NCBI GenBank assembly: GCA_947457395.1
Contig: CANGVA010000002.1
Span: 145,234-209,233 of the forward strand
Reading direction: 5' to 3'
Length of the DNA stretch: 64,000 nucleotides
Origin: Bacteroidota bacterium
GTDB taxonomy: Bacteria; Bacteroidota; Bacteroidia; UKL13-3
A program made the position numbers and the translations under genes. Shown in pieces: positions 26,245 through 42,476 of the stretch (position 1 is its first letter; each line of letters starts with the position of its first letter). The notes beneath the pieces were generated by a model. That model had not been told where the DNA came from and searched no databases. It saw only the letters and a list, made by a program, of their open reading frames with translations.

Positions 26245-29200
26245 TTATGGTTGCCTGCTTCCTATTTTGTTAAAATAGGCTCTTGTTTTCTCTATATAAT
26301 ATGGCTGCATTTGTGCGGGTATGGTTTGATGCAACTCTTTCTCTTTATTTTTCTGCTTAATGTATTGCTCAAAATCAGGGGGTGCGGGTTTGGTCTTTTC
26401 TTTTGCCTGTTCGGCCTCACGTTTTTGTTCTTGCTCCTGTTTTTTCTCTGCTTTCTCACTCTCCAGCAAACGGGTTAGTATTTCCTGCTGCCGGTACAAC
26501 ATTTCACTGGTTAGTTGCTTGTTAAAGAGTTCTTTCTCGGTTTGCTCCATCATCTTCTGCATTTCCTGGAGTGCTTTATTTCCGCCAAAACCTTGTTTTT
26601 CTTTCGCCCCCATTTCCTGCATCATTTTTTGCATTTGCTGCCTAATAGCCTGCTGCTGGGCGGCCATTCGGGCAAACTCCTGGCTGCCCATTCCCTGCTG
26701 CCCTCCTGGTTTCTGACCATTGGGTTGTTGTTGGTTATTTAAGCCTTCACGCAACTGCTTGTTTAGTTCTTCCTGCATCTTCTTTAGCTCGCTCATTGAT
26801 TTTCCTTTTTCCTTGCCTTTACCTTTACCCTTGCCAGGTTTGGGTTTTGATTTTCCGCCCTTCTGACCTTCGCCACTCATCTGATCTTGCATTTGTTTTA
26901 GTACCTCACTTAACATTACTGCCAGGTTGTTAGCGTGAGTCATTGCATATTGTTGGCGTGTGCGTATTTCACCAAAAAACCGTTTGCCAAAACTTGCTAC
27001 ACTTCTATCAAGATTATCATTTAATTTAGTTACCTCTCGATTTATAAAAGATCCCAGTTCGGGTACCCGCTTACTTAATGCCAACAGGCTGTCTTCAATA
27101 ATTTTGGCATTATCTTTAATTCGCTTTTGCTCCTTTGCCTTTTCCACAAACTGGGGGTTATATCCATTTATCTGTTTTAGTTCCTCCATTAGCTTTTCCT
27201 GGTCTTTGGAGAGTTGTATGGTGTTTTCCAAAATCTCGCGTAATGCTTCTGCGTTCAGTTCAATTTCCTTTTCGTTTTGCTTATCTGCTGCATCTTTCAT
27301 TTTCTCTTCCATTCGCTTCATGCTTTCGGCTGCCTTTTTTTGTTTTTCAGCAGCTTTCTTGCTATCCTTTTTGTCCAACTCCTGCTCACTTCCTTCCATT
27401 TGTTCCTCTGTTTCCTTCTGCTCTTGTTCAGTATTTTCAAGTTGTTTGGGGTCCTCTAGCGCTTTGTTTTTCTCGTTCAATTCGTTCAGGTCTTTTTTCA
27501 GTTCATCAAACACCTGCTTATTTTCTTGTTGCTCCTTTTTTATTTGATCAAGTTTTTGTTGCTTATCTTCTTTGTTTATGTTTTTTTCCGTACTTAATGC
27601 TTCGCTTTTGCCAGCGAGTTCTTCCTGTTTCTTTTGCAATTGTTGAAGTTTTTCTAGGGCTTCTTCCTGCTTTTTTTCTACCTCAAGGCGTTTAAACTGT
27701 TCCAGCATCCGGTCCAGCTCTTTTTCTACGTCTTTGTTATTCAATTGCATTTTCTCCATTTCCTGTTTAATCAGGTCCTTGTTTTGCAGTTGCATCATTT
27801 GCTCAACCTGTTTAATCAGTTTCTTCATTTCCTCACTCATTACCTCGTTAAACATTTTCTCTATTAACTGTTGCTTTTGCAGCAATTCATCGCTTTGTTT
27901 TTTAAACTCATGTTCCTGTTCTTTCAATTGTTTTTGCTCCTGTTTTATTTGTTCAATTTTTTCTGCCAGCTTCTTTTGACGCTCTATCAGTTGATCCAAT
28001 TTTTTCTTCTCTTCCCATGTAAGCTCTCGTTTTTCCTGCATTTTTCGTTCGAGATCCTTAAGCTCTCTTTGCATTTGTTTGCTTTCTCTGATGGCGTCTT
28101 CCATTTTCTGTTTTAGGGCGCTGCTTCCGGCTTCTGCCTTTTGCTCCAACTCCTGCAAAGACGGAGCCCTGCGAAGCATTATTTTACTTTTGGTTGATTT
28201 GGGTCCGTGCACGCCATCATTATCCCAAACTTCAAAATAATATTCCAACTCGTCTGAGGGGGCAAAACCAATTTCATCTAAATTCATTTGGTAATAAAAA
28301 CGCTGCGCGATTGCGTTTTTCTGAACCGCAAGAGTCTTGTTCTTTGTCCCATGCTTGATTTTTTCAATGTCATCAGATTTAATAAAACGATAGCAGAATA
28401 GTAGTCGGGCTAAACCATAATCATCCGATGCATCACCAACGAAATAAATCTGTTTTCCTGTTAATGTATCTATCTTTTCTTCTGCTGCAATGGTTGGGTA
28501 GGTATCTGGCAAAACATTTATCTGGTAATACAATGAATCGCCTGTGCTAATAATATTGTTGGTTGTTTTGATATAATATGCTGTTGATAAAAACATTTTT
28601 TTACTAAATGTAAACACATCTGTTTCCTGCGGGTTTGCTTTGGCTGTAACGCCATTAAACCCCAAAATAATCTGATTGGCCTGCTCTGCGGCAAATTGCC
28701 AGTTAAGATTTGTTCCTGCCGGTATAGTAATATCTCCGGGGCTGTTAAGCGTTTCACTTTTTTTGTTAAGATATTTGGGGTATTGTAACTGTAACTTATA
28801 TCCAACAAGCCTTGGCCTTGAAACAACGTCAAGGCTATATGTTTCCGATGTGAAATCATTTGCCTCAAAGTAAAAAACTTCCGAGCGCTTAAGCGTATTA
28901 AAAAGATAACCGAAATGCGTGTTGTCTTGCTTCTGCATTTTTATCTTATAATCTCCTCTTACAAGGTAAACCTCATCCGGAAGCTTGCTTCCTTCAAGTC
29001 TTAATTCCAAATTAAAATCAGAGAATTGCTCTGCCCTTAGTTGTGGATTTGTTATAATAAAACGGAATGGCGCCACCGGCTTAAACGTTTGATTGTACGC
29101 AATAACGCGTTTGCCACCATCGCTTATCATACCGGGAGCCACTAAGTATATAGCAGCGTATAGTATTACTGGTAAAAGAACATATCTTGCATATCGTAGA

Positions 29201-29658
29201 TTTTTTTTTAGGTCAATTGCTGCAGTAAACGGAATGGGTTTAAGTTGACTTGTTTTTTGTTCAATAGCAGCCTTTATTAATCCTGTATCTTGACTGCTTT
29301 TTAATTCTTGTTGCAACTGCAGCGTGTTTAGCAACTTGTCTTTTACTTCCGGAAAGTGTTTTCCAATTATTTGTGCTGCTTGTGTATGGTTTATGATTTT
29401 ACCCAGCCTATACATATGCGCAAGTGGAACCAATACAAACCAAACAATAAAATATAATGCCGTACTTAAAATGGTAAAAAACAAAACAGCCCTTATTGTT
29501 GTGCCGAAATGGCCATAGTATTCCATAACAACGGCTAGCAAAACGGTAAGCAGGATGGCCAATATGGTATATATAAAACCCCTTATCAGTTGATTTTTAT
29601 AATACCTCCTGATGAATGCATCGAGTTTTTGTATTAATATATTTTCTGTTGCTAGCAT
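26245..29658 (-). CDS. DUF4175 family membrane protein with long coiled coil
   Basis: A 1137-residue protein (ATG 29658; an in-frame TTG lies 6 nt upstream). Two transmembrane helices lie at about 28-48 and 58-80, and a third at about 160-178 (YVLLPVILYAAIYLVAPG), followed by a beta-rich periplasmic part to about residue 500. From about 510 to 1120 the chain is almost entirely charged coiled coil, rich in K, E and Q (EQKLKEQEHEFKKQSDELLQKQQLIEKM), with a basic Lys-Gly patch (KPKPGKGKGKGKEKGKS). This is the DUF4175 layout common in Bacteroidota; the function is unknown. The thioredoxin-like gene is divergent, 107 nt away. Confidence 0.88.
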   Translation of the reverse strand: MLATENILIQKLDAFIRRYYKNQLIRGFIYTILAILLTVLLAVVMEYYGHFGTTIRAVLFFTILSTALYFIVWFVLVPLAHMYRLGKIINHTQAAQIIGKHFPEVKDKLLNTLQLQQELKSSQDTGLIKAAIEQKTSQLKPIPFTAAIDLKKNLRYARYVLLPVILYAAIYLVAPGMISDGGKRVIAYNQTFKPVAPFRFIITNPQLRAEQFSDFNLELRLEGSKLPDEVYLVRGDYKIKMQKQDNTHFGYLFNTLKRSEVFYFEANDFTSETYSLDVVSRPRLVGYKLQLQYPKYLNKKSETLNSPGDITIPAGTNLNWQFAAEQANQIILGFNGVTAKANPQETDVFTFSKKMFLSTAYYIKTTNNIISTGDSLYYQINVLPDTYPTIAAEEKIDTLTGKQIYFVGDASDDYGLARLLFCYRFIKSDDIEKIKHGTKNKTLAVQKNAIAQRFYYQMNLDEIGFAPSDELEYYFEVWDNDGVHGPKSTKSKIMLRRAPSLQELEQKAEAGSSALKQKMEDAIRESKQMQRELKDLERKMQEKRELTWEEKKKLDQLIERQKKLAEKIEQIKQEQKQLKEQEHEFKKQSDELLQKQQLIEKMFNEVMSEEMKKLIKQVEQMMQLQNKDLIKQEMEKMQLNNKDVEKELDRMLEQFKRLEVEKKQEEALEKLQQLQKKQEELAGKSEALSTEKNINKEDKQQKLDQIKKEQQENKQVFDELKKDLNELNEKNKALEDPKQLENTEQEQKETEEQMEGSEQELDKKDSKKAAEKQKKAAESMKRMEEKMKDAADKQNEKEIELNAEALREILENTIQLSKDQEKLMEELKQINGYNPQFVEKAKEQKRIKDNAKIIEDSLLALSKRVPELGSFINREVTKLNDNLDRSVASFGKRFFGEIRTRQQYAMTHANNLAVMLSEVLKQMQDQMSGEGQKGGKSKPKPGKGKGKGKEKGKSMSELKKMQEELNKQLREGLNNQQQPNGQKPGGQQGMGSQEFARMAAQQQAIRQQMQKMMQEMGAKEKQGFGGNKALQEMQKMMEQTEKELFNKQLTSEMLYRQQEILTRLLESEKAEKKQEQEQKREAEQAKEKTKPAPPDFEQYIKQKNKEKELHQTIPAQMQPYYIEKTRAYFNKIGSRQP

Positions 29659-29734
29659 TGCCAATGTGCGAAATTAAGAGAATAACGAGAACCTTGCTGT
29701 GGTATTTTTTATTTTAGTGGTTTGAAAATAATAT

Positions 29735-30305: not shown

Positions 30306-32201
30306 ATGAGTGATGCAATAAAACACGAATGCGGTATCGCATTCATCAGGCTGCTAAAACCACTTGATTATTATCAGCAGAAATACGGCTCCTCTCTGTA
30401 TGGCCTTAAAAAGCTGTACCTGTTAATGGAAAAACAACACAACCGCGGCCAGGATGGTGCCGGTGTTGGCGTAATTAAATTAAACCCTAATCCGGGAAGC
30501 CCTTACATATTTAGAAGGCGTGCCAGCGGAAGCAATGCTATTGCTGAAATTTTTGGTAAGATAAGCAAGAAAATTAACGAATCGGGGAGTAAAAAAGAGC
30601 TTCAGAATGCCGATTACTTTAAGCAGCACTCTCCTTTTGGAGGCGAAGTGTTGCTTGGCCACTTGCGCTATGGGACCTATGGGGGAAGCGAAAGTAATCT
30701 TTGCCACCCTTTCATCAGAGAAAACAACTGGATGACCAGAAACCTGATGCTTGCAGGTAATTTTAATATGACCAACGTTGATGAGTTGTTTGATTTGCTG
30801 ATGGAGCTTGGACAACACCCCAGCGAAAAAGCAGACACCATTACCATGCTGGAAAAAATTGGTCATTTTTTAGATGAAGAAAATCAGACGCTCTTTGAGC
30901 ATTACAAGGCCAAAGGATTAAACAACAAAGAAATTACCCAACACATTGCAAATAGTCTGAGTATTGAAAATATACTAAAGCGCTCATTAAAAGAGGTGGA
31001 TGGCGGCTATGTGCTTGCGGGCCTCATTGGTCATGGTGATGCATTTATTGTGCGAGACCCTAATGGTATAAGGCCCTGTTTTTATTATCATGATGATGAG
31101 GTGGTGGTTGTTACCTCTGAAAGACCCGCTATACAAACAGGTTTTAATGTTCGTGTTGGTAGCATCAAAGAGTTGGGTGCCGGTAATGCCCTGATAATTA
31201 AAAAAGATGGGGTAGTAACCGAAACAAACATCATTCCTGCCGGAGATAAAAAACAGTGCACCTTTGAGCGCATCTATTTCTCTCGGGGTAACGATAGGGA
31301 TATTTACAAAGAACGCAAAAAACTGGGCTATCTGCTTACGCCCAAAGTGCTTGCGTCTATCAACCATGATATTACCAATACGGTTTTCTCTTACATACCC
31401 AATACTGCAGCTACCGCTTTTTATGGTATGATTGATGGCGTACTGGATTATTTAAGCCAATACAAAGCAGATGAGATTTTCAAAATGGGGCCAAACCCTG
31501 ATAAGGATAAGCTAAAAAAATTGCTGGCGCTTAAGCCGCGAAGAGAGAAAATTGCAGTTAAAGATGCCAAGCTGCGCACCTTTATAACAGACGACCAACA
31601 CCGCGAGGATATGGTGGCACACGTATATGATGTAACATATGGAATCATCAATAATAATACCGATACCCTGGTGGTAATGGATGACTCTATTGTTCGCGGA
31701 ACAACGCTTCGCACAAGTATTTTACGCATCTTAGATCGTTTGCATCCTAAAAAAATCATAATAGTTTCCAGTGCACCACAAATCCGATATCCTGATTGTT
31801 ATGGCATAGATATGAGCCGACTAAAAGATTTTGTAGCATTTCAGGCAATGTTGGCGCTATTAAAAGAAACTAAAAGGGAGCATTTATTGCAGGATGTGTA
31901 TAAGAAGTGTAAGGCTCAAGAAAATCTTCCCAAAGAGCAAATGGTAAATTATTTAAAAGATTTGTATGCGCTTTTTAGTGATGATGAAATAAGTAATAAG
32001 GTGGCTCAAATTGTAAAACCGGATGATATTGAGGCTGAAGTTGGAGTAATTTATCAAAGCATAGAAAACGTACATAAGGCCTGCCCAGAGCATAGGGGTG
32101 ACTGGTATTTTAGTGGCGACTACCCAACTCCTGGTGGGAATAAAGTGGTAAACAAAGCTTTCATTAACTTTATAGAGGGTGTTGCTGCCCGTGCTTATTA
32201 A
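30306..32201 (+). CDS. purF: Amidophosphoribosyltransferase (class II glutamine amidotransferase type)
   Basis: A 631-residue enzyme converting PRPP and glutamine to phosphoribosylamine, the first committed purine step. The N-terminal glutaminase has its nucleophile at C9 (KHECGIAFIR), after an eight-residue leader MSDAIKHE that would be removed as in propeptide-type PurF. QHNRGQDGAGV and the LGHLRYGTYG motif fit the family. The PRPP-binding motif is VVMDDSIVRGTTLRTS. It is longer than the roughly 500-residue classical enzyme; this longer form is common in Bacteroidota. It lies just upstream of lptB (12-nt gap), an unrelated function. Confidence 0.9.
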   Translation: MSDAIKHECGIAFIRLLKPLDYYQQKYGSSLYGLKKLYLLMEKQHNRGQDGAGVGVIKLNPNPGSPYIFRRRASGSNAIAEIFGKISKKINESGSKKELQNADYFKQHSPFGGEVLLGHLRYGTYGGSESNLCHPFIRENNWMTRNLMLAGNFNMTNVDELFDLLMELGQHPSEKADTITMLEKIGHFLDEENQTLFEHYKAKGLNNKEITQHIANSLSIENILKRSLKEVDGGYVLAGLIGHGDAFIVRDPNGIRPCFYYHDDEVVVVTSERPAIQTGFNVRVGSIKELGAGNALIIKKDGVVTETNIIPAGDKKQCTFERIYFSRGNDRDIYKERKKLGYLLTPKVLASINHDITNTVFSYIPNTAATAFYGMIDGVLDYLSQYKADEIFKMGPNPDKDKLKKLLALKPRREKIAVKDAKLRTFITDDQHREDMVAHVYDVTYGIINNNTDTLVVMDDSIVRGTTLRTSILRILDRLHPKKIIIVSSAPQIRYPDCYGIDMSRLKDFVAFQAMLALLKETKREHLLQDVYKKCKAQENLPKEQMVNYLKDLYALFSDDEISNKVAQIVKPDDIEAEVGVIYQSIENVHKACPEHRGDWYFSGDYPTPGGNKVVNKAFINFIEGVAARAY

Positions 32202-34174: not shown

Positions 34175-34577
34175 TATTTAACGGGATTGGTTCTGCTTTT
34201 TTACAATCACCAAAACTAATACATTTTAAAATTATACCTAAACACACATGTATTAAAACAATAAACCTTTAAATAATTGTATTAGTAATAAGTCCTGTGA
34301 ATTGGTTGAAATATCATTTTCAAAATTCTTGTATTTTATCTTATTCTCTTCAGACGCACAGTTTACTAACATTAAGAAATTTTAATAATCAATTACTTAT
34401 ATAGTTTTATAAACAATGTTGGTAACCTAACCCACTTAAAAATATGGAAAAAAAATAAGCATTATTAATGTAGATATATATCGTTTAACAGGTGGGTAAA
34501 ATAGGGTTTATTAGCTAATATTAATATACCCACATTTGTAATTAACATTAAGCTTATAAAAATTACGTTTATACACA
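34175..34577. other. 403-nt AT-rich spacer upstream of pheS
   Basis: A very AT-rich spacer between pheS and the Big_5 lipoprotein gene. The minus strand carries TAGTTTTG (34218-34211), a good -7 match, with TTTA 20 nt upstream (34242-34239), ending about 36 nt before the pheS start. ACCCAC near 34430 and GTGGGT near 34491 form a 6-bp inverted repeat that could fold but is weak evidence. I see no tRNA, T-box or ORF of note. Confidence 0.5.
34211..34242 (-). promoter_or_regulatory. Candidate pheS promoter (TTTA-N20-TAGTTTTG)
   Basis: On the minus strand, TAGTTTTG (34218-34211) matches TAnnTTTG and is preceded 20 nt upstream by TTTA, one mismatch from TTTG. It would give a leader of about 30 nt to the pheS ATG at 34174. 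Confidence 0.35.
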
Positions 34578-37096: not shown

Positions 37097-38959
37097 TTAA
37101 CGACCCAAATGCACCAGCAATACAGAAATATCCGCTGGTGAAATGCCGCTTATTCTAGCCGCTTGCCCAAGTGTAACGGGTCTTTGCTTGATAAGTTTTT
37201 CGCGCGCCTCTAATGAAATTGACTTTACTGTATTATAATCAAAACCATCTTTAATTCTTATTTCTTCAAGCCTGTTCATTTTATCAACCATCTGTTTTTC
37301 TTTTTCCAAGTAGCCCTCATATTTCATCAAAACTTCGGCTTGCAAAACAGCATCCTCTTTAAAACCTTGCAGAAATTCATTTACCTGTGGTAAGCGCTTT
37401 AGGTTTGCCATATCAACTTGCGGGCGGCTTAATATCGCATCAAGCTTATAATTTTGTGGTATTGGTGCGGTGCTCAGTTCTGCCAGTAAGGGGTTTATAT
37501 CGGTTGGTATAACAGAGGTTTTTTTAAAGTATGTGACTATATCTGCAGTCTGCTTTTCTTTTTCTTCCACAGCATGCATCCGTAATTTACTAGCTAATCC
37601 TAGCCTATACCCTTTTTCGGTTAGTCTGATATCAGCATTGTCTTGTCTTAACATAATTCTGTATTCGGCCCTGGAGGTAAACATGCGATAGGGTTCATCG
37701 GTGCCTTTGTTAACAAGATCATCTATGAGCACGCCTATGTATGCTTCAGATCGTTTAAGAACAAAGTCTTCTTTTCCTGCCAGTTTACCATGGGCATTTA
37801 TGCCCGCAATTAGCCCCTGGCATGCTGCCTCTTCATAGCCCGTAGTGCCATTAATTTGGCCGGCAAAAAACAGGTTTTCTATTAAATGGGTTTCAAGGGT
37901 AAGTTTGAGTTGCGTTGGGGGGAAATAATCATATTCAATGGCATATCCAGGTCTGAAGATTTTGGCATCTTCAAATCCGGGTATTAGTCTCAGCGCTTTT
38001 ATTTGAACATGATCAGGCAATGAGGTGGAGAACCCGTTTACGTATATTTCAACTGTGCTCCAACCCTCGGGTTCTACAAAAATTTGGTGGCGCTCTCTTT
38101 CGGCAAAACGATTTATTTTGTCTTCAATTGAAGGGCAATACCTAGGCCCAAGCCCTTGAATTCGGCCTGCATACATGGGCGATTCATCAAAACCGGTTCT
38201 CAATACCTCATGAACAGCTTCGTTGGTATAGGTAATCCAACAGCAACGCTGGTTGGAAACGGGTGTGGTTAGACTACTATAAGAAAACCTTCCCGGGTTT
38301 TCATCGCCATCCTGTCGCTCCATTTTGTCGTAGTTCAATGATCTTCCATCAACCCTTGGTGGAGTGCCCGTTTTCATCCGGCCACTCTCAAAACCCAATG
38401 AAACAAGCTGTTCGGTTATCCCTGTTGATGACTTCTCTCCTATTCTTCCTCCGCCAAATTGTTTGGTTCCAATATGAATAATTCCGTTAAGAAAAGTACC
38501 GCTTGTAAGTATTACGGCCTTGCAGCCTATTTTTTGCCCCATTCCGGTAATTACACCACAAACCTTTCCTTTATCAAGCACGAGCTCTTTTACCATGTCT
38601 TGCCAGAAATCTACATTGGGCGTAGCCTCAAGAATTTCCCTCCAGTATTGGCTAAAAAGCATTCTATCGTTTTGGCTTCTTGGGCTCCACATGGCAGGAC
38701 CCTTAGAGCGGTTTAGCATGCGAAATTGAATAGTAGATTTGTCTGAAACGATACCTGAATAACCCCCAATTGCATCTATTTCCCTGATAATCTGGCCCTT
38801 CGCGATTCCTCCCATGGCCGGGTTGCAGCTCATTTGAGCAATTTTATTCATGTCCATGGTGATAAGCAAAACCCGGGAGCCAAGATTAGCAGCAGCAGCA
38901 GCAGCTTCACAACCCGCATGCCCTGCACCTACTACAATGATATCATAGTCAATAAACAT
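37097..38959 (-). CDS. mnmG: tRNA uridine-5-carboxymethylaminomethyl synthesis enzyme MnmG
   Basis: A 620-residue FAD enzyme that, with MnmE, installs the (carboxymethyl)aminomethyl group at wobble U34. The FAD dinucleotide motif GAGHAGCEAA (11-20) starts the chain; MSCNPAMGGIAKGQ, MKTGTPPR and the FAGQINGTTGYEEAACQGL block are diagnostic. The C-terminal helical domain (EAREKLIKQRPVTLGQAARISG) is complete. In many bacteria mnmG/gidA lies near oriC, and a parS-like site sits 28 nt upstream of this start. Confidence 0.98.
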   Translation of the reverse strand: MFIDYDIIVVGAGHAGCEAAAAAANLGSRVLLITMDMNKIAQMSCNPAMGGIAKGQIIREIDAIGGYSGIVSDKSTIQFRMLNRSKGPAMWSPRSQNDRMLFSQYWREILEATPNVDFWQDMVKELVLDKGKVCGVITGMGQKIGCKAVILTSGTFLNGIIHIGTKQFGGGRIGEKSSTGITEQLVSLGFESGRMKTGTPPRVDGRSLNYDKMERQDGDENPGRFSYSSLTTPVSNQRCCWITYTNEAVHEVLRTGFDESPMYAGRIQGLGPRYCPSIEDKINRFAERERHQIFVEPEGWSTVEIYVNGFSTSLPDHVQIKALRLIPGFEDAKIFRPGYAIEYDYFPPTQLKLTLETHLIENLFFAGQINGTTGYEEAACQGLIAGINAHGKLAGKEDFVLKRSEAYIGVLIDDLVNKGTDEPYRMFTSRAEYRIMLRQDNADIRLTEKGYRLGLASKLRMHAVEEKEKQTADIVTYFKKTSVIPTDINPLLAELSTAPIPQNYKLDAILSRPQVDMANLKRLPQVNEFLQGFKEDAVLQAEVLMKYEGYLEKEKQMVDKMNRLEEIRIKDGFDYNTVKSISLEAREKLIKQRPVTLGQAARISGISPADISVLLVHLGR

Positions 38960-38986: not shown

Positions 38987-39002
38987 GGTTCCACGTGAAA
39001 CA
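38987..39002. other. parS-like ParB-binding site A
   Basis: GGTTCCACGTGAAACA matches the parS consensus TGTTNCACGTGAAACA at 14 of the 15 fixed positions, with a perfect 14-nt core (GTTCCACGTGAAAC, 38988-39001). It lies in the 50-nt gap between ybeY and mnmG. Confidence 0.85.
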
Positions 39003-39009
39003 TGGAAAA

Positions 39010-39471
39010 TCAGCGAAGCAAAGATAAGCAAACATCCTCTTTCTTTCTCATTTTTTCCTTTTCGGCTTTGCTTTTGTCTTTGTAACCGCAGAGGTGTAAT
39101 ATTCCGTGAATCATGACGCGTTTGAGTTCCACGTGAAACGTTTCCTTTAGTTCTGCCGCATTTTCTTTGACACGCCCCTTGCTTATGTAAATATCCCCGG
39201 AAATTAAATTATTTTCAGTGAAGTCAAAGGTGATGATGTCGGTGTAATAATTGTGATTAAGAAATTCTCGGTTCATTTCAAGTAGGTGATTATCGCTACA
39301 AAAATTAAAAGAGATTTCTCCAAATGATTTCCTTTCTTCTTTAATGCAAAGGGCAATCCACCTTCTTAGTTCCTGCTTGTTGCGAACGAATGGCTTCACA
39401 TCAATAAAATTAAAAGAGATGTGACTATTTGAGGAGGGTAACGAACCCGGATTTTGTTTGTTTTTTACCAT
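39010..39471 (-). CDS. ybeY: Endoribonuclease YbeY (rRNA maturation factor)
   Basis: A 153-residue metal-dependent endoribonuclease involved in 16S rRNA 3'-end maturation. The core LLEMNREFLNHNYYTDIITFDF and ISGDIYIS are family hallmarks. The metal site reads HGILHLCGYKD; the third His of the classical H-x3-H-x5-H is Asp here, which I believe is the usual Bacteroidota form. The start overlaps the end of the upstream T9SS gene by 47 nt. A parS-like site lies inside the coding sequence (39125-39140). Confidence 0.93.
   Translation of the reverse strand: MVKNKQNPGSLPSSNSHISFNFIDVKPFVRNKQELRRWIALCIKEERKSFGEISFNFCSDNHLLEMNREFLNHNYYTDIITFDFTENNLISGDIYISKGRVKENAAELKETFHVELKRVMIHGILHLCGYKDKSKAEKEKMRKKEDVCLSLLR
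39125..39140. other. parS-like ParB-binding site B, inside ybeY
   Basis: AGTTCCACGTGAAACG contains the same perfect 14-nt core as site A (GTTCCACGTGAAAC, 39126-39139); only the two outermost bases differ from TGTTNCACGTGAAACA. It lies 138 bp from site A. Confidence 0.85.
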
Positions 39472-41227
39472 TGGGGCTAATTATATAAAACTTATAATAG
39501 TAAACACCACCAATACAACTATTACCAGAGGCGTCTTTACCGTCCCATCCGCCCGAAATGTCTTTTTGGGAAACAATAAGCCCCCCCCAGCGGTCAAATA
39601 TTTCCATAGATGAATTTGCGTAATCAATATAACTTCCTTCTGGCCGGAATATCGTATTTACCCCCCCTGGCCGGAATGCGTTTGGTACATAAACCACCAT
39701 TTCACCAATAAGACAATCTGAAAAGCTCTTGGCCGAAACCGGATCGGCTGGTGCCGGAAGGGCTTGAACGGCTTCAACAAAATAGCACAACCCAAAACTC
39801 CCCACGTTTTCGGGGAGTTGGTTGTCTACATACATGCTATCCGTTCCTGGAACAGAATCAATTAATATATAGCTTCTTTTCCCAAAATCATCATCTGTAC
39901 CCCTGTAAATACGGTATATGGATACACCAGCCGGCCAACCAAAATACCTATTCCAGGTAAGTGTATTTTCGTTACTATTGGACACAACTTTAAGTACCAT
40001 TTGGGGCATTACTACATTATTTTCATACAGAATATTACATAAATTAACGCTTTCAAGTCTGAAATGTAACTCATCTTCTCTGTCGGGAGTCATAAACACA
40101 TGAGAAATGCGCCCGGTCTGCCCAAGGCTAGAAATGGATGCTATATTCGAAAATGTACCCCTATTTGCAGAAGCATTATACCAAATATTGATTTGCTTAG
40201 ATTCCTCGTTGTTCACGATGAGTAAATCAGCCTTTAATTCATCAGCATCCGGGTTTACAGCGCTTATATTAATTAAAAGCGTGTTTGTGGGCTCTTTTCG
40301 GCCCCTTGTTTGCAAAGTTAGTTGAGATGAAGTGGAGCTGACCGAAACGCTTGTATCTCTGTAGGCTCGAACAAAAAAATCATTGACATCGCCAAGTAAA
40401 ATGGGTAATTGGTAGCTGTTTAAATTACCTGGTAATGAATCAATTAACTTATATCCGGCACCATTTATTTGCCTAAAAATATAGTAATATCTTACCTTGG
40501 GCCAGCCCACATAGTGGGTCCATTGCAGACTTGCTGTTTTTTTACACGTATCTACGCTTCCGCTTAAATATATGGTAATGTGCGGATTAATATTAAAAAC
40601 TTGTGGCCTTGTGTTACAACTATCTATTGATGTTATATCATATTTTAACGGCCTAAGTCTAGGATCAGAAAAGAGATTATTATCTGTTGCAAAAGTATCT
40701 CTAAGCACACCAGAAACGACCTCAACCCACTTAATCGCCAAGCTGTCATAAAATAACAGGTATCGGAAAAAGTCTGGTGTGGGGCTTTTTCTCCACCCAA
40801 TCTTAACCCTGTTCGTTGGTATGTCTACGCTAACAGAGTCTAAAAATAGTGTATCGGGAGGTGTGTCGTCTACTCCCATTGTATCTGAAAATGAATTATT
40901 TGTAGAACAAGAATCCAGATATTGAATAAAATAACGCCAATTGGTGGTGGTGCCAATCGGATTTGCGCCCAAGTGCATATATGAATCGGCCGATTTTATG
41001 CTGAGCGAATCAATTAATAGGAAAGGCCCGCTGTTTCCATTTCGCCCCCAAACGTAGTATGTTCTGAAGCGCTGGCATGTATCGTTTGATGGAAAGAAAA
41101 ACATAGAATTATTTGGCCCAACCCTGCATACCCGCCTCATTTTTGGTGGTTCTGTACCCCATACACCCATTGCAAAATGGAGCAACAACAAAAAAGTGTA
41201 TAAACTATTTCCCCGCAACAACTTCAT
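39425..41227 (-). CDS. T9SS type B (gliding motility-associated) sorting-domain protein
   Basis: A 600-residue secreted protein with a signal peptide (LYTFLLLLHFAMGVWG). The body is a series of fibronectin/Ig-like beta domains with repeated S-D-T-C-x-K and WTHYVGWPKVRYYYIFRQ/WNRYFGWPAGVSIYRIYRG units, so at least two modules are homologous repeats. The C-terminal about 90 residues (VVYVPNAFRPGG ... MEIFDRWGGLIVSQKD ... GVYYYKFYIISPNGKKQTKSGFVTLLK) are a type B T9SS sorting domain. Poly-G tracts of 8 and 7 (minus strand) lie in that domain. It overlaps ybeY by 47 nt and the M16 gene by 23 nt. Confidence 0.87.
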   Translation of the reverse strand: MKLLRGNSLYTFLLLLHFAMGVWGTEPPKMRRVCRVGPNNSMFFFPSNDTCQRFRTYYVWGRNGNSGPFLLIDSLSIKSADSYMHLGANPIGTTTNWRYFIQYLDSCSTNNSFSDTMGVDDTPPDTLFLDSVSVDIPTNRVKIGWRKSPTPDFFRYLLFYDSLAIKWVEVVSGVLRDTFATDNNLFSDPRLRPLKYDITSIDSCNTRPQVFNINPHITIYLSGSVDTCKKTASLQWTHYVGWPKVRYYYIFRQINGAGYKLIDSLPGNLNSYQLPILLGDVNDFFVRAYRDTSVSVSSTSSQLTLQTRGRKEPTNTLLINISAVNPDADELKADLLIVNNEESKQINIWYNASANRGTFSNIASISSLGQTGRISHVFMTPDREDELHFRLESVNLCNILYENNVVMPQMVLKVVSNSNENTLTWNRYFGWPAGVSIYRIYRGTDDDFGKRSYILIDSVPGTDSMYVDNQLPENVGSFGLCYFVEAVQALPAPADPVSAKSFSDCLIGEMVVYVPNAFRPGGVNTIFRPEGSYIDYANSSMEIFDRWGGLIVSQKDISGGWDGKDASGNSCIGGVYYYKFYIISPNGKKQTKSGFVTLLK

Positions 41228-42476
41228 AAAGATCTTCGTGTTTCAAATATTTATTTGCCATTTCTTGAAGAGATAACGAGGTGGTGTTTTTAATTATTTC
41301 AATAAATTCATTATAGTATTCTGCGCTTAGACCATAATCTATTAAAATTCTTTGACGGCTAGCCTGTTCAAACACCCCATCCAGGCTTCTCAGAAAAGAA
41401 CCCAACATATAATTCTTGGCGGTATTTAATTCTTCTTCTCCAACCGCTATGTTACGAAGCCGTTCCAGCTCTTTATATATTTCTGAAACACCAAGATCAA
41501 CTAGCTCATTGTTAATGTCGGTTTCAATATAAAATACTCCATCATAAAGGTAGGATTCTAGAGCGGAATAAATTCCATAAGTAAGACCCTTTTCCTCTCG
41601 AATGTTTGACATAAGCCGAGACCCAAAATACCCACCAAGAATTAAATTTAGCAATTGCATTTTCCTAAAATCCGGATGATTCCGGTTAAATAGTTTACGC
41701 CCTATTCTAATGGTGGATTGTACCGAACCCCCTTTATGAATTTCAATTTTCTGTGCCCGTTCCTGTGGGGGTGCGTATTCAAATATAGATTGGTTATGCC
41801 GGCCGAAAGTAGAGAGCACATCCGTTATTTTATCAATAACACCGATACCCACAGACCCTGAAGCCATAATGTATTTTAGCTTGCGCCTGTAGTGCATCTC
41901 ATAGAAAGAAACCAGTGTTTCACGTGAAATATTTTTTATATCATGTTGATAAACAGGGGCTCCATATGGGTTTTTGTTTCCAAAAACAGCCTCAAAGAAT
42001 GATCTTCTTGCAAGGTAAGAGGTTTTGCTTTCGTTCACCAACAAACGCTGTACAGCATTTTCTTTTTGGGTTTTTATTTCCTCCTCGCTATAGCTGGCAT
42101 GGGATAAAATATCAACTACAAGAGGCAGACAAGATTCTAGGTGTTTAGGCAGGCAAAACAGGGTAAGAGTTGCATCATCGTTTCCTGAGCGGTTTTGCAA
42201 GTACGCACCATAAAAATCAAGGTGCTCAGCCAGTTCTTTAGAAGTGTAGTGGGTGGTTCCTTCAACCAATAATGTGTTTGTTGCGCTTGCCACATATGGC
42301 GCAGGTTGAAGACGAGCGCCTGCATCAAACACAAACTCGATCTTCAGCACCTCAACATTGGGGTCATTCACGGAATAAATTTCAACCCCGCTTGCTATCG
42401 TTGAGCAAACTGCCGGAGTTATTTGAACCTTATCAATTTCCCGCACGTTTGGGGCCGATATTCTGTTAATTGGCAT
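41205..42476 (-). CDS. M16 peptidase homologue lacking the zinc motif (regulatory partner)
   Basis: A 423-residue protein of the insulinase/processing-peptidase family. It has the two-domain M16 pattern (VFDAGARLQPAPYVASATNTLLVEGTTHYTSKELAEHLDFYGA; RIGRKLFNRNHPDFRKMQLLNLILGGYFGSRLMSNIREEKGLTYGI) but no HxxEH where the active paralogue has HLFEH. It should act as the non-catalytic partner, like mitochondrial alpha-MPP. It overlaps the active M16 gene by 11 nt. A parS-like site lies inside the gene. Confidence 0.9.
   Translation of the reverse strand: MPINRISAPNVREIDKVQITPAVCSTIASGVEIYSVNDPNVEVLKIEFVFDAGARLQPAPYVASATNTLLVEGTTHYTSKELAEHLDFYGAYLQNRSGNDDATLTLFCLPKHLESCLPLVVDILSHASYSEEEIKTQKENAVQRLLVNESKTSYLARRSFFEAVFGNKNPYGAPVYQHDIKNISRETLVSFYEMHYRRKLKYIMASGSVGIGVIDKITDVLSTFGRHNQSIFEYAPPQERAQKIEIHKGGSVQSTIRIGRKLFNRNHPDFRKMQLLNLILGGYFGSRLMSNIREEKGLTYGIYSALESYLYDGVFYIETDINNELVDLGVSEIYKELERLRNIAVGEEELNTAKNYMLGSFLRSLDGVFEQASRQRILIDYGLSAEYYNEFIEIIKNTTSLSLQEMANKYLKHEDLYEVVAGK
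41916..41931. other. parS-like ParB-binding site C, inside the inactive M16 gene
   Basis: TGTTTCACGTGAAATA differs from TGTTNCACGTGAAACA at one position and contains the perfect 12-nt palindrome TTTCACGTGAAA. It lies about 2.8 kb from site B. Confidence 0.75.

Follow-up and report, generated by a model that had tools for sequence, protein, structure and literature searches.

Likely parS sites clustered at mnmG, close to a likely replication origin, in a Bacteroidota genome

We analysed a stretch of 64,000 nucleotides from contig C2 (CANGVA010000002.1) of a Bacteroidota bacterium; the whole stretch is called the window below. The source genome comprises 2.54 Mb in 34 contigs and is 99.96% complete, and C2 makes up 10% of it. 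Three sites clustered around mnmG in the window match parS, and the single ParB of the genome is predicted to bind them. We are confident in reading them as a likely centromere a few kilobases from a likely replication origin. Judged from sequence, they would be the ordinary parS of an ordinary chromosomal ParABS system, with binding and a role in segregation both predicted. From established knowledge of ParABS, ParB would load at the three sites and spread over the adjacent DNA, and ParA would pull newly copied origin regions apart.

A preliminary description of the window had placed three such sites around mnmG, ybeY and an M16 gene, two with a perfect core and one differing at a single base. 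Indeed, all three were found where it had placed them, with exact cores at sites 1 and 2, and profile matches bore out the gene names (Table 1). Two of the sites are inside coding sequence, as it had said: site 2 in ybeY and site 3 in the M16 gene. The search used the 14-base core GTTYCACGTGRAAC and the 16-mer TGTTNCACGTGAAACA, and the core read backwards served as the control. Exact cores were observed in the whole genome at sites 1 and 2 only, spaced 138 bp apart, whereas 0.03 per genome was predicted from the composition of C2; the pair is therefore not due to chance, as had been claimed, and the genome shows no scatter of exact sites. The reversed core did not occur in the 2.54 Mb. Against the 16-mer, sites 1, 2 and 3 have one, two and one mismatches, respectively, and no place in the genome other than sites 1 and 3 has at most one. 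Matches with two mismatches lie at seven more places elsewhere in the genome; hence, a match of this kind alone means little. When up to three mismatches were allowed, the window contained seven matches versus 2.43 expected, a number reached by 4 of 100 shuffles. Taken together, two exact cores and a third site with one mismatch indicate that the match to the parS palindrome exceeds chance.

Table 1 Positions of the parS-like sites, their host genes and the candidate origin within the window
Feature	Position	Strand	Remarks
parS site 1	38987..39002	none	exact core 38988-39001, in 50-bp ybeY-mnmG gap
parS site 2	39125..39140	none	exact core 39126-39139, inside ybeY
parS site 3	41916..41931	none	one mismatch, inside M16 peptidase gene
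mnmG (gidA), tRNA uridine-5-carboxymethylaminomethyl synthesis enzyme	37097..38959	-	TIGR00136, 814.5 bits, cut-off 524.85
ybeY, rRNA maturation RNase	39010..39471	-	TIGR00043, 99.6 bits, cut-off 45
M16-family peptidase gene	41205..42476	-	PF05193 and PF00675 above cut-off
Candidate oriC	34175..34577	none	403-bp AT-rich gap, 23% GC, between pheS and Big_5 gene

The genome has one match to ParB/Noc-type proteins (L025:13108-13998, contig C9), which scored 194.4 bits with TIGR00180 (cut-off 58.45). Directly upstream of parB, a ParA/MinD-type ATPase is encoded (L025:12302-13102); since no NCBIfam ParA model reached its cut-off for this protein, it is named ParA by likeness and place. The best NCBIfam score of the ParB match was that with nucleoid_noc (231.7 bits, under the cut-off of 315), and at position 184 the protein shares K with Noc (by eye). 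Both points would fit a Noc-type nucleoid-occlusion protein that binds the sites instead of ParB. However, alignments read by eye showed R and G at the two key specificity positions, in contrast to Q and R of Noc, with F and K at the remaining two. The protein is, moreover, the only one of its type in the genome and follows a ParA-like gene, and the sites have CACGTG where the Noc site has its CCCGGG centre. We consider binding by Noc extremely unlikely. PMC7383237 describes R and G as absolutely conserved in parS-binding ParB and Q and R in Noc, and reports K or R at the latter of the other two positions in about 28% of ParB. Because R and G occupy both specificity positions, the ParB of this genome should bind parS. 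A ParB of the kind that the preliminary description presupposed is thus encoded, and parB and dnaA lie outside the window, as it had noted, on contigs C9 and C24, respectively.

The placement beside mnmG recurs across the phylum. Exact parS was present in 111 of 118 Bacteroidota genomes, and site places were listed for 104 of these (G008, G050, G058, G003, G030, G085 and G096 were left out), with distances taken to the ends of the mnmG match. Exactly two exact sites were found in 78 of the 104 genomes, 207 of the 224 listed sites were at most 5 kb from mnmG, and the median distance was 32 bp for the 208 sites sharing a contig with mnmG. In 97 of the 104 genomes, all sites were within 2.5 kb of the gene. 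A second set of 31 nearer genomes contained 22 with exact sites, all of them within 2.5 kb of mnmG in 19 (by eye); G147 of this set has an exact site and no mnmG match. Sixteen genomes of the two sets had no exact site, and 13 of them have a single-mismatch site at most 3 kb from mnmG (by eye). In G116 and G126, which lack a full mnmG match, no single-mismatch site was found. In total, 27 of the 36 single-mismatch sites in the 16 genomes were at most 3 kb from mnmG, and the reversed pattern gave 29 matches. We also examined 80 named mnmG loci, the best 80 of 590 matches, some of which end at contig ends. An exact site was found at most 2 kb from mnmG in 63 of the 80, and a site with at most one mismatch near it in 70. 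These loci hold 153 exact sites, 152 of them within 2 kb of mnmG, against none for the reversed control, and 38 single-mismatch sites against one.

The leader of mnmG contains site 1, and in 59 of the 80 loci the 200 bp upstream of the gene include an exact site, as might be expected if the palindrome were a transcription-factor operator for mnmG or its operon and resembled parS by coincidence. However, sites 2 and 3 are within coding sequence, and 37 of the 104 genomes have exactly two sites, one on each side of mnmG. The sequence is also that of standard parS with a matching ParB in the genome, and the skew of relatives turns at the mnmG locus, as described below. An operator is accordingly a very unlikely explanation.

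In Flavobacterium and Terrimonas, arrays of parS precede mnmG (L095, L097, L101 and L071). That of L095 occupies the stretch between 1188 and 77 bp upstream of mnmG and contains seven exact and five single-mismatch sites; four single-mismatch sites of this locus have a CACATG centre and repeat every 116-118 bp. In G034 (contig C56) and G109 (contig C42), parS away from mnmG shares its contig with parB, at distances of 72 kb and 53-60 kb, respectively. Among the papers that a literature search listed, none described parS next to mnmG throughout Bacteroidota; a 2007 survey (PMC2168934) may have noted the arrangement.

Genes for DnaA and ParB above the family cut-off were detected in 118 of 118 genomes. 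Eighteen genomes are single contigs, and 15 of them were tabulated (G033 has no exact site, and G003 and G030 have no listed places). In these 15, the distance between dnaA and mnmG was 8-55 kb for six genomes and 151-1593 kb for the other nine, and parB was 301-1342 kb from mnmG in all, some lengths being rounded. We measured GC skew in six complete chromosomes picked for a dnaA 0.6-1.6 Mb from mnmG. Twenty stretches of 20 kb were sampled from each, in steps of 110-220 kb, and the mean of six samples per side was compared. A switch from negative to positive skew was seen at mnmG in six of six, at dnaA in one (G057) and at parB in none. Among 20 possible origins, the position nearest mnmG ranked 1, 5, 1, 4, 3 and 1, that nearest dnaA 17, 6, 18, 11, 10 and 16, and that nearest parB 10, 10, 12, 14, 13 and 16. 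The best all-base fit was 11-67 kb from mnmG in four chromosomes and 166 kb in G057, and the best all-base fits were 539-1557 kb away from dnaA. With fourfold sites, the best fit was 9-67 kb from mnmG in five chromosomes. These results suggest that mnmG likely marks the replication start in Bacteroidota even when dnaA lies far away; PMC4755523 states that Bacteroidetes origins are commonly far from dnaA. The preliminary description had taken this part of the window to be origin-proximal, and the turn of the skew at mnmG rather than dnaA in the six relatives lends support to that reading. As the skew of the genome itself gives no decision, the proximity of the window to an origin rests mainly on relatives and on conserved gene order.

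Close relatives were compared around the individual sites. In G118, of the same genus, both exact cores align to sites 1 and 2 and the spacing of 138 bp is kept. When the ybeY-mnmG gap was aligned in five genomes, the parS core stood out from diverged flanks. At locus L031, A replaces the outer G of the core at site 1, and 15 of the 16 bases of site 3 are kept. Locus L263 and L031 are apparently the same sequence, and G132 is probably the genome of L031. All six amino acids at site 3 are the same in L031; protein constraint could therefore keep the site. Site 3 might then be a chance near-match preserved by the protein sequence, with sites 1 and 2 alone being parS, and the 29 single-mismatch matches of the reversed pattern in 16 genomes would agree with this. 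However, the 15 bases are kept although the M16 genes share 51% of their nucleotides and 43% of their residues, and seven of the 12 most similar 16-base windows, out of 1251, overlap site 3. Codons for the same residue are identical in five of six cases within the site versus 76 of 174 elsewhere, a small comparison. Furthermore, G119, G128 and G132 have single-mismatch sites 2921-2929 bp before mnmG, the same distance as site 3. We consider a chance origin of site 3 unlikely, and retain it as a probable third parS.

In the family of the window (G119, G120, G124, G125, G128, G132 and G133), parS usually carries A in place of the outer G in one half, and these variants are in similar places before mnmG.

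Several observations weigh against the reading of the three sites as a centromere beside an origin. Binding of ParB at the window sites is something that we infer from its sequence. Sites 1 and 2 depart from the 16-mer at its outer bases (one and two mismatches), and site 3 does not match at one outer base of the core. Within the phylum, G064, G037, G034, G013 and G109 carry parS on contigs other than that of mnmG, one of the two sites of G072 is 25.5 kb from mnmG, and G025 has five sites at a contig end besides four at mnmG. The exact sites of G140 and G142 are not all within 2.5 kb of mnmG, the only single-mismatch site of G091 is 93 kb from it, and ten of the 80 loci have no site near the gene. 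As for the skew, the best all-base fit in G095 is 446 kb from mnmG, and its fourfold-site fit is 434 kb away (tied with 214 kb). In G057, all-base skew barely separates mnmG (r 0.70) from dnaA (0.62). Gene-strand bias in the six chromosomes disagrees, its best fits being 172-1194 kb from mnmG. On C2, one contig of 34, the cumulative skew falls to equally low minima at about 186 and 216 kb (mnmG is at 182-184 kb), and the skew of fourfold sites tracks gene direction with no clear switch.

A gap downstream of mnmG is a plausible oriC, as a candidate only (Table 1). In the window, the order ybeY, mnmG, methyltransferase and Big_5 gene is followed by this gap and then pheS, and the order is the same in L031; the gap is thus an AT-rich intergenic region at a conserved place. 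It lies 4.4-4.8 kb downstream of the mnmG start, matching a peak of DnaA boxes in relatives. Exact boxes, which we take to be TTATNCACA, numbered 0.85 per kb at 4-5 kb downstream of the mnmG start in the 80 loci, compared with 0-0.07 per kb in bins between -10 and +2 kb and between +7 and +11 kb. A minority of loci produces the peak, with at least three boxes within 400 bp in seven of the 80 and two in ten. At L093, the cluster has 14 near-boxes, 12 of them exact (reached by none of 100 shuffles), and fills the gap behind a methyltransferase and a Big_5/DUF2141 gene. Eighteen sequences (the window and 17 relatives) together contain 66 near-boxes versus a summed shuffle mean of 21.8, and seven of the 18 each exceed at least 95 of 100 shuffles. 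The gap of the window itself contains two near-boxes (one exact) versus 1.2, a count reached by 31 of 100 shuffles; since this is not above chance, the gap stays a candidate only. Boxes in the window at 31895, 34569 and 35211, the second of which falls in the gap, form no cluster. A scan of C2 found no 300-bp stretch with more than three near-boxes, and the gap is not among the 12 stretches listed.

Among the neighbouring genes, that at 39425-41227 (-) encodes a CHU_C type IX secretion signal domain, and its 3' end overlaps the ybeY start. The search for SMC covered the surroundings of the sites. An open reading frame there (26245-29664, -; 1139 aa), strongly skewed in base composition, appeared SMC-like by that composition and was rejected as SMC: Pfam gave only a weak match to DUF4175, just over the cut-off, and NCBIfam gave nothing. 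A promoter scan was uninformative, finding 31 versus 32.2 in shuffles.

The palindromes at mnmG, and not dnaA, would offer a simple landmark for the origin and centromere of Bacteroidota. Several single-contig genomes start at dnaA although mnmG is where their skew turns, and the true origin is needed to estimate growth rates from read coverage. The question posed is why parS stays tens of bases from mnmG while dnaA and parB move. One answer would be that mnmG is the fixed centromere seat of the whole phylum because ParB loaded in its leader also controls the gene and thereby couples tRNA modification to segregation or firing of the origin; we offer this as a speculation that is much more likely to be wrong than right.

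The chromosomal ParABS systems of Bacillus, Caulobacter and Pseudomonas have the same palindrome as the window sites, and likewise a parS-type ParB behind a ParA-like gene and sites clustered near the inferred origin. In these bacteria, mnmG, rsmG, parA and parB are together near the origin. In contrast, parAB of the window genome is on another contig than mnmG, and in the 15 single-contig relatives parS stays at mnmG with parB 301-1342 kb away. Escherichia coli has oriC beside mnmG (gidA) with dnaA elsewhere, as proposed here, but differs in that it is not known to use ParABS and parS in segregation. For gut strains including Bacteroides caecimuris and Muribaculum intestinale, PMC10197239 describes parS clusters as marking the origin and notes that dnaA is not always an origin marker; the available part of that paper mentions neither mnmG nor a phylum-wide placement. 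According to the same paper, two Bacteroidetes yielded no known condensin. For Mariniflexile litorale and Algorimicrobium bowmanii, an oriC beside mnmG, as is likely here, was predicted with Ori-Finder and supported by GC skew (PMC11278836, PMC12843772); these are single-species predictions, the available parts do not discuss parS, and a figure legend of PMC11278836 swaps oriC and ter relative to the text. Earlier publications thus already cover origins far from dnaA in Bacteroidetes and, for two species, an oriC at mnmG; what merits pursuit is that parS keeps so closely to mnmG across the phylum, wherever parAB and dnaA lie.

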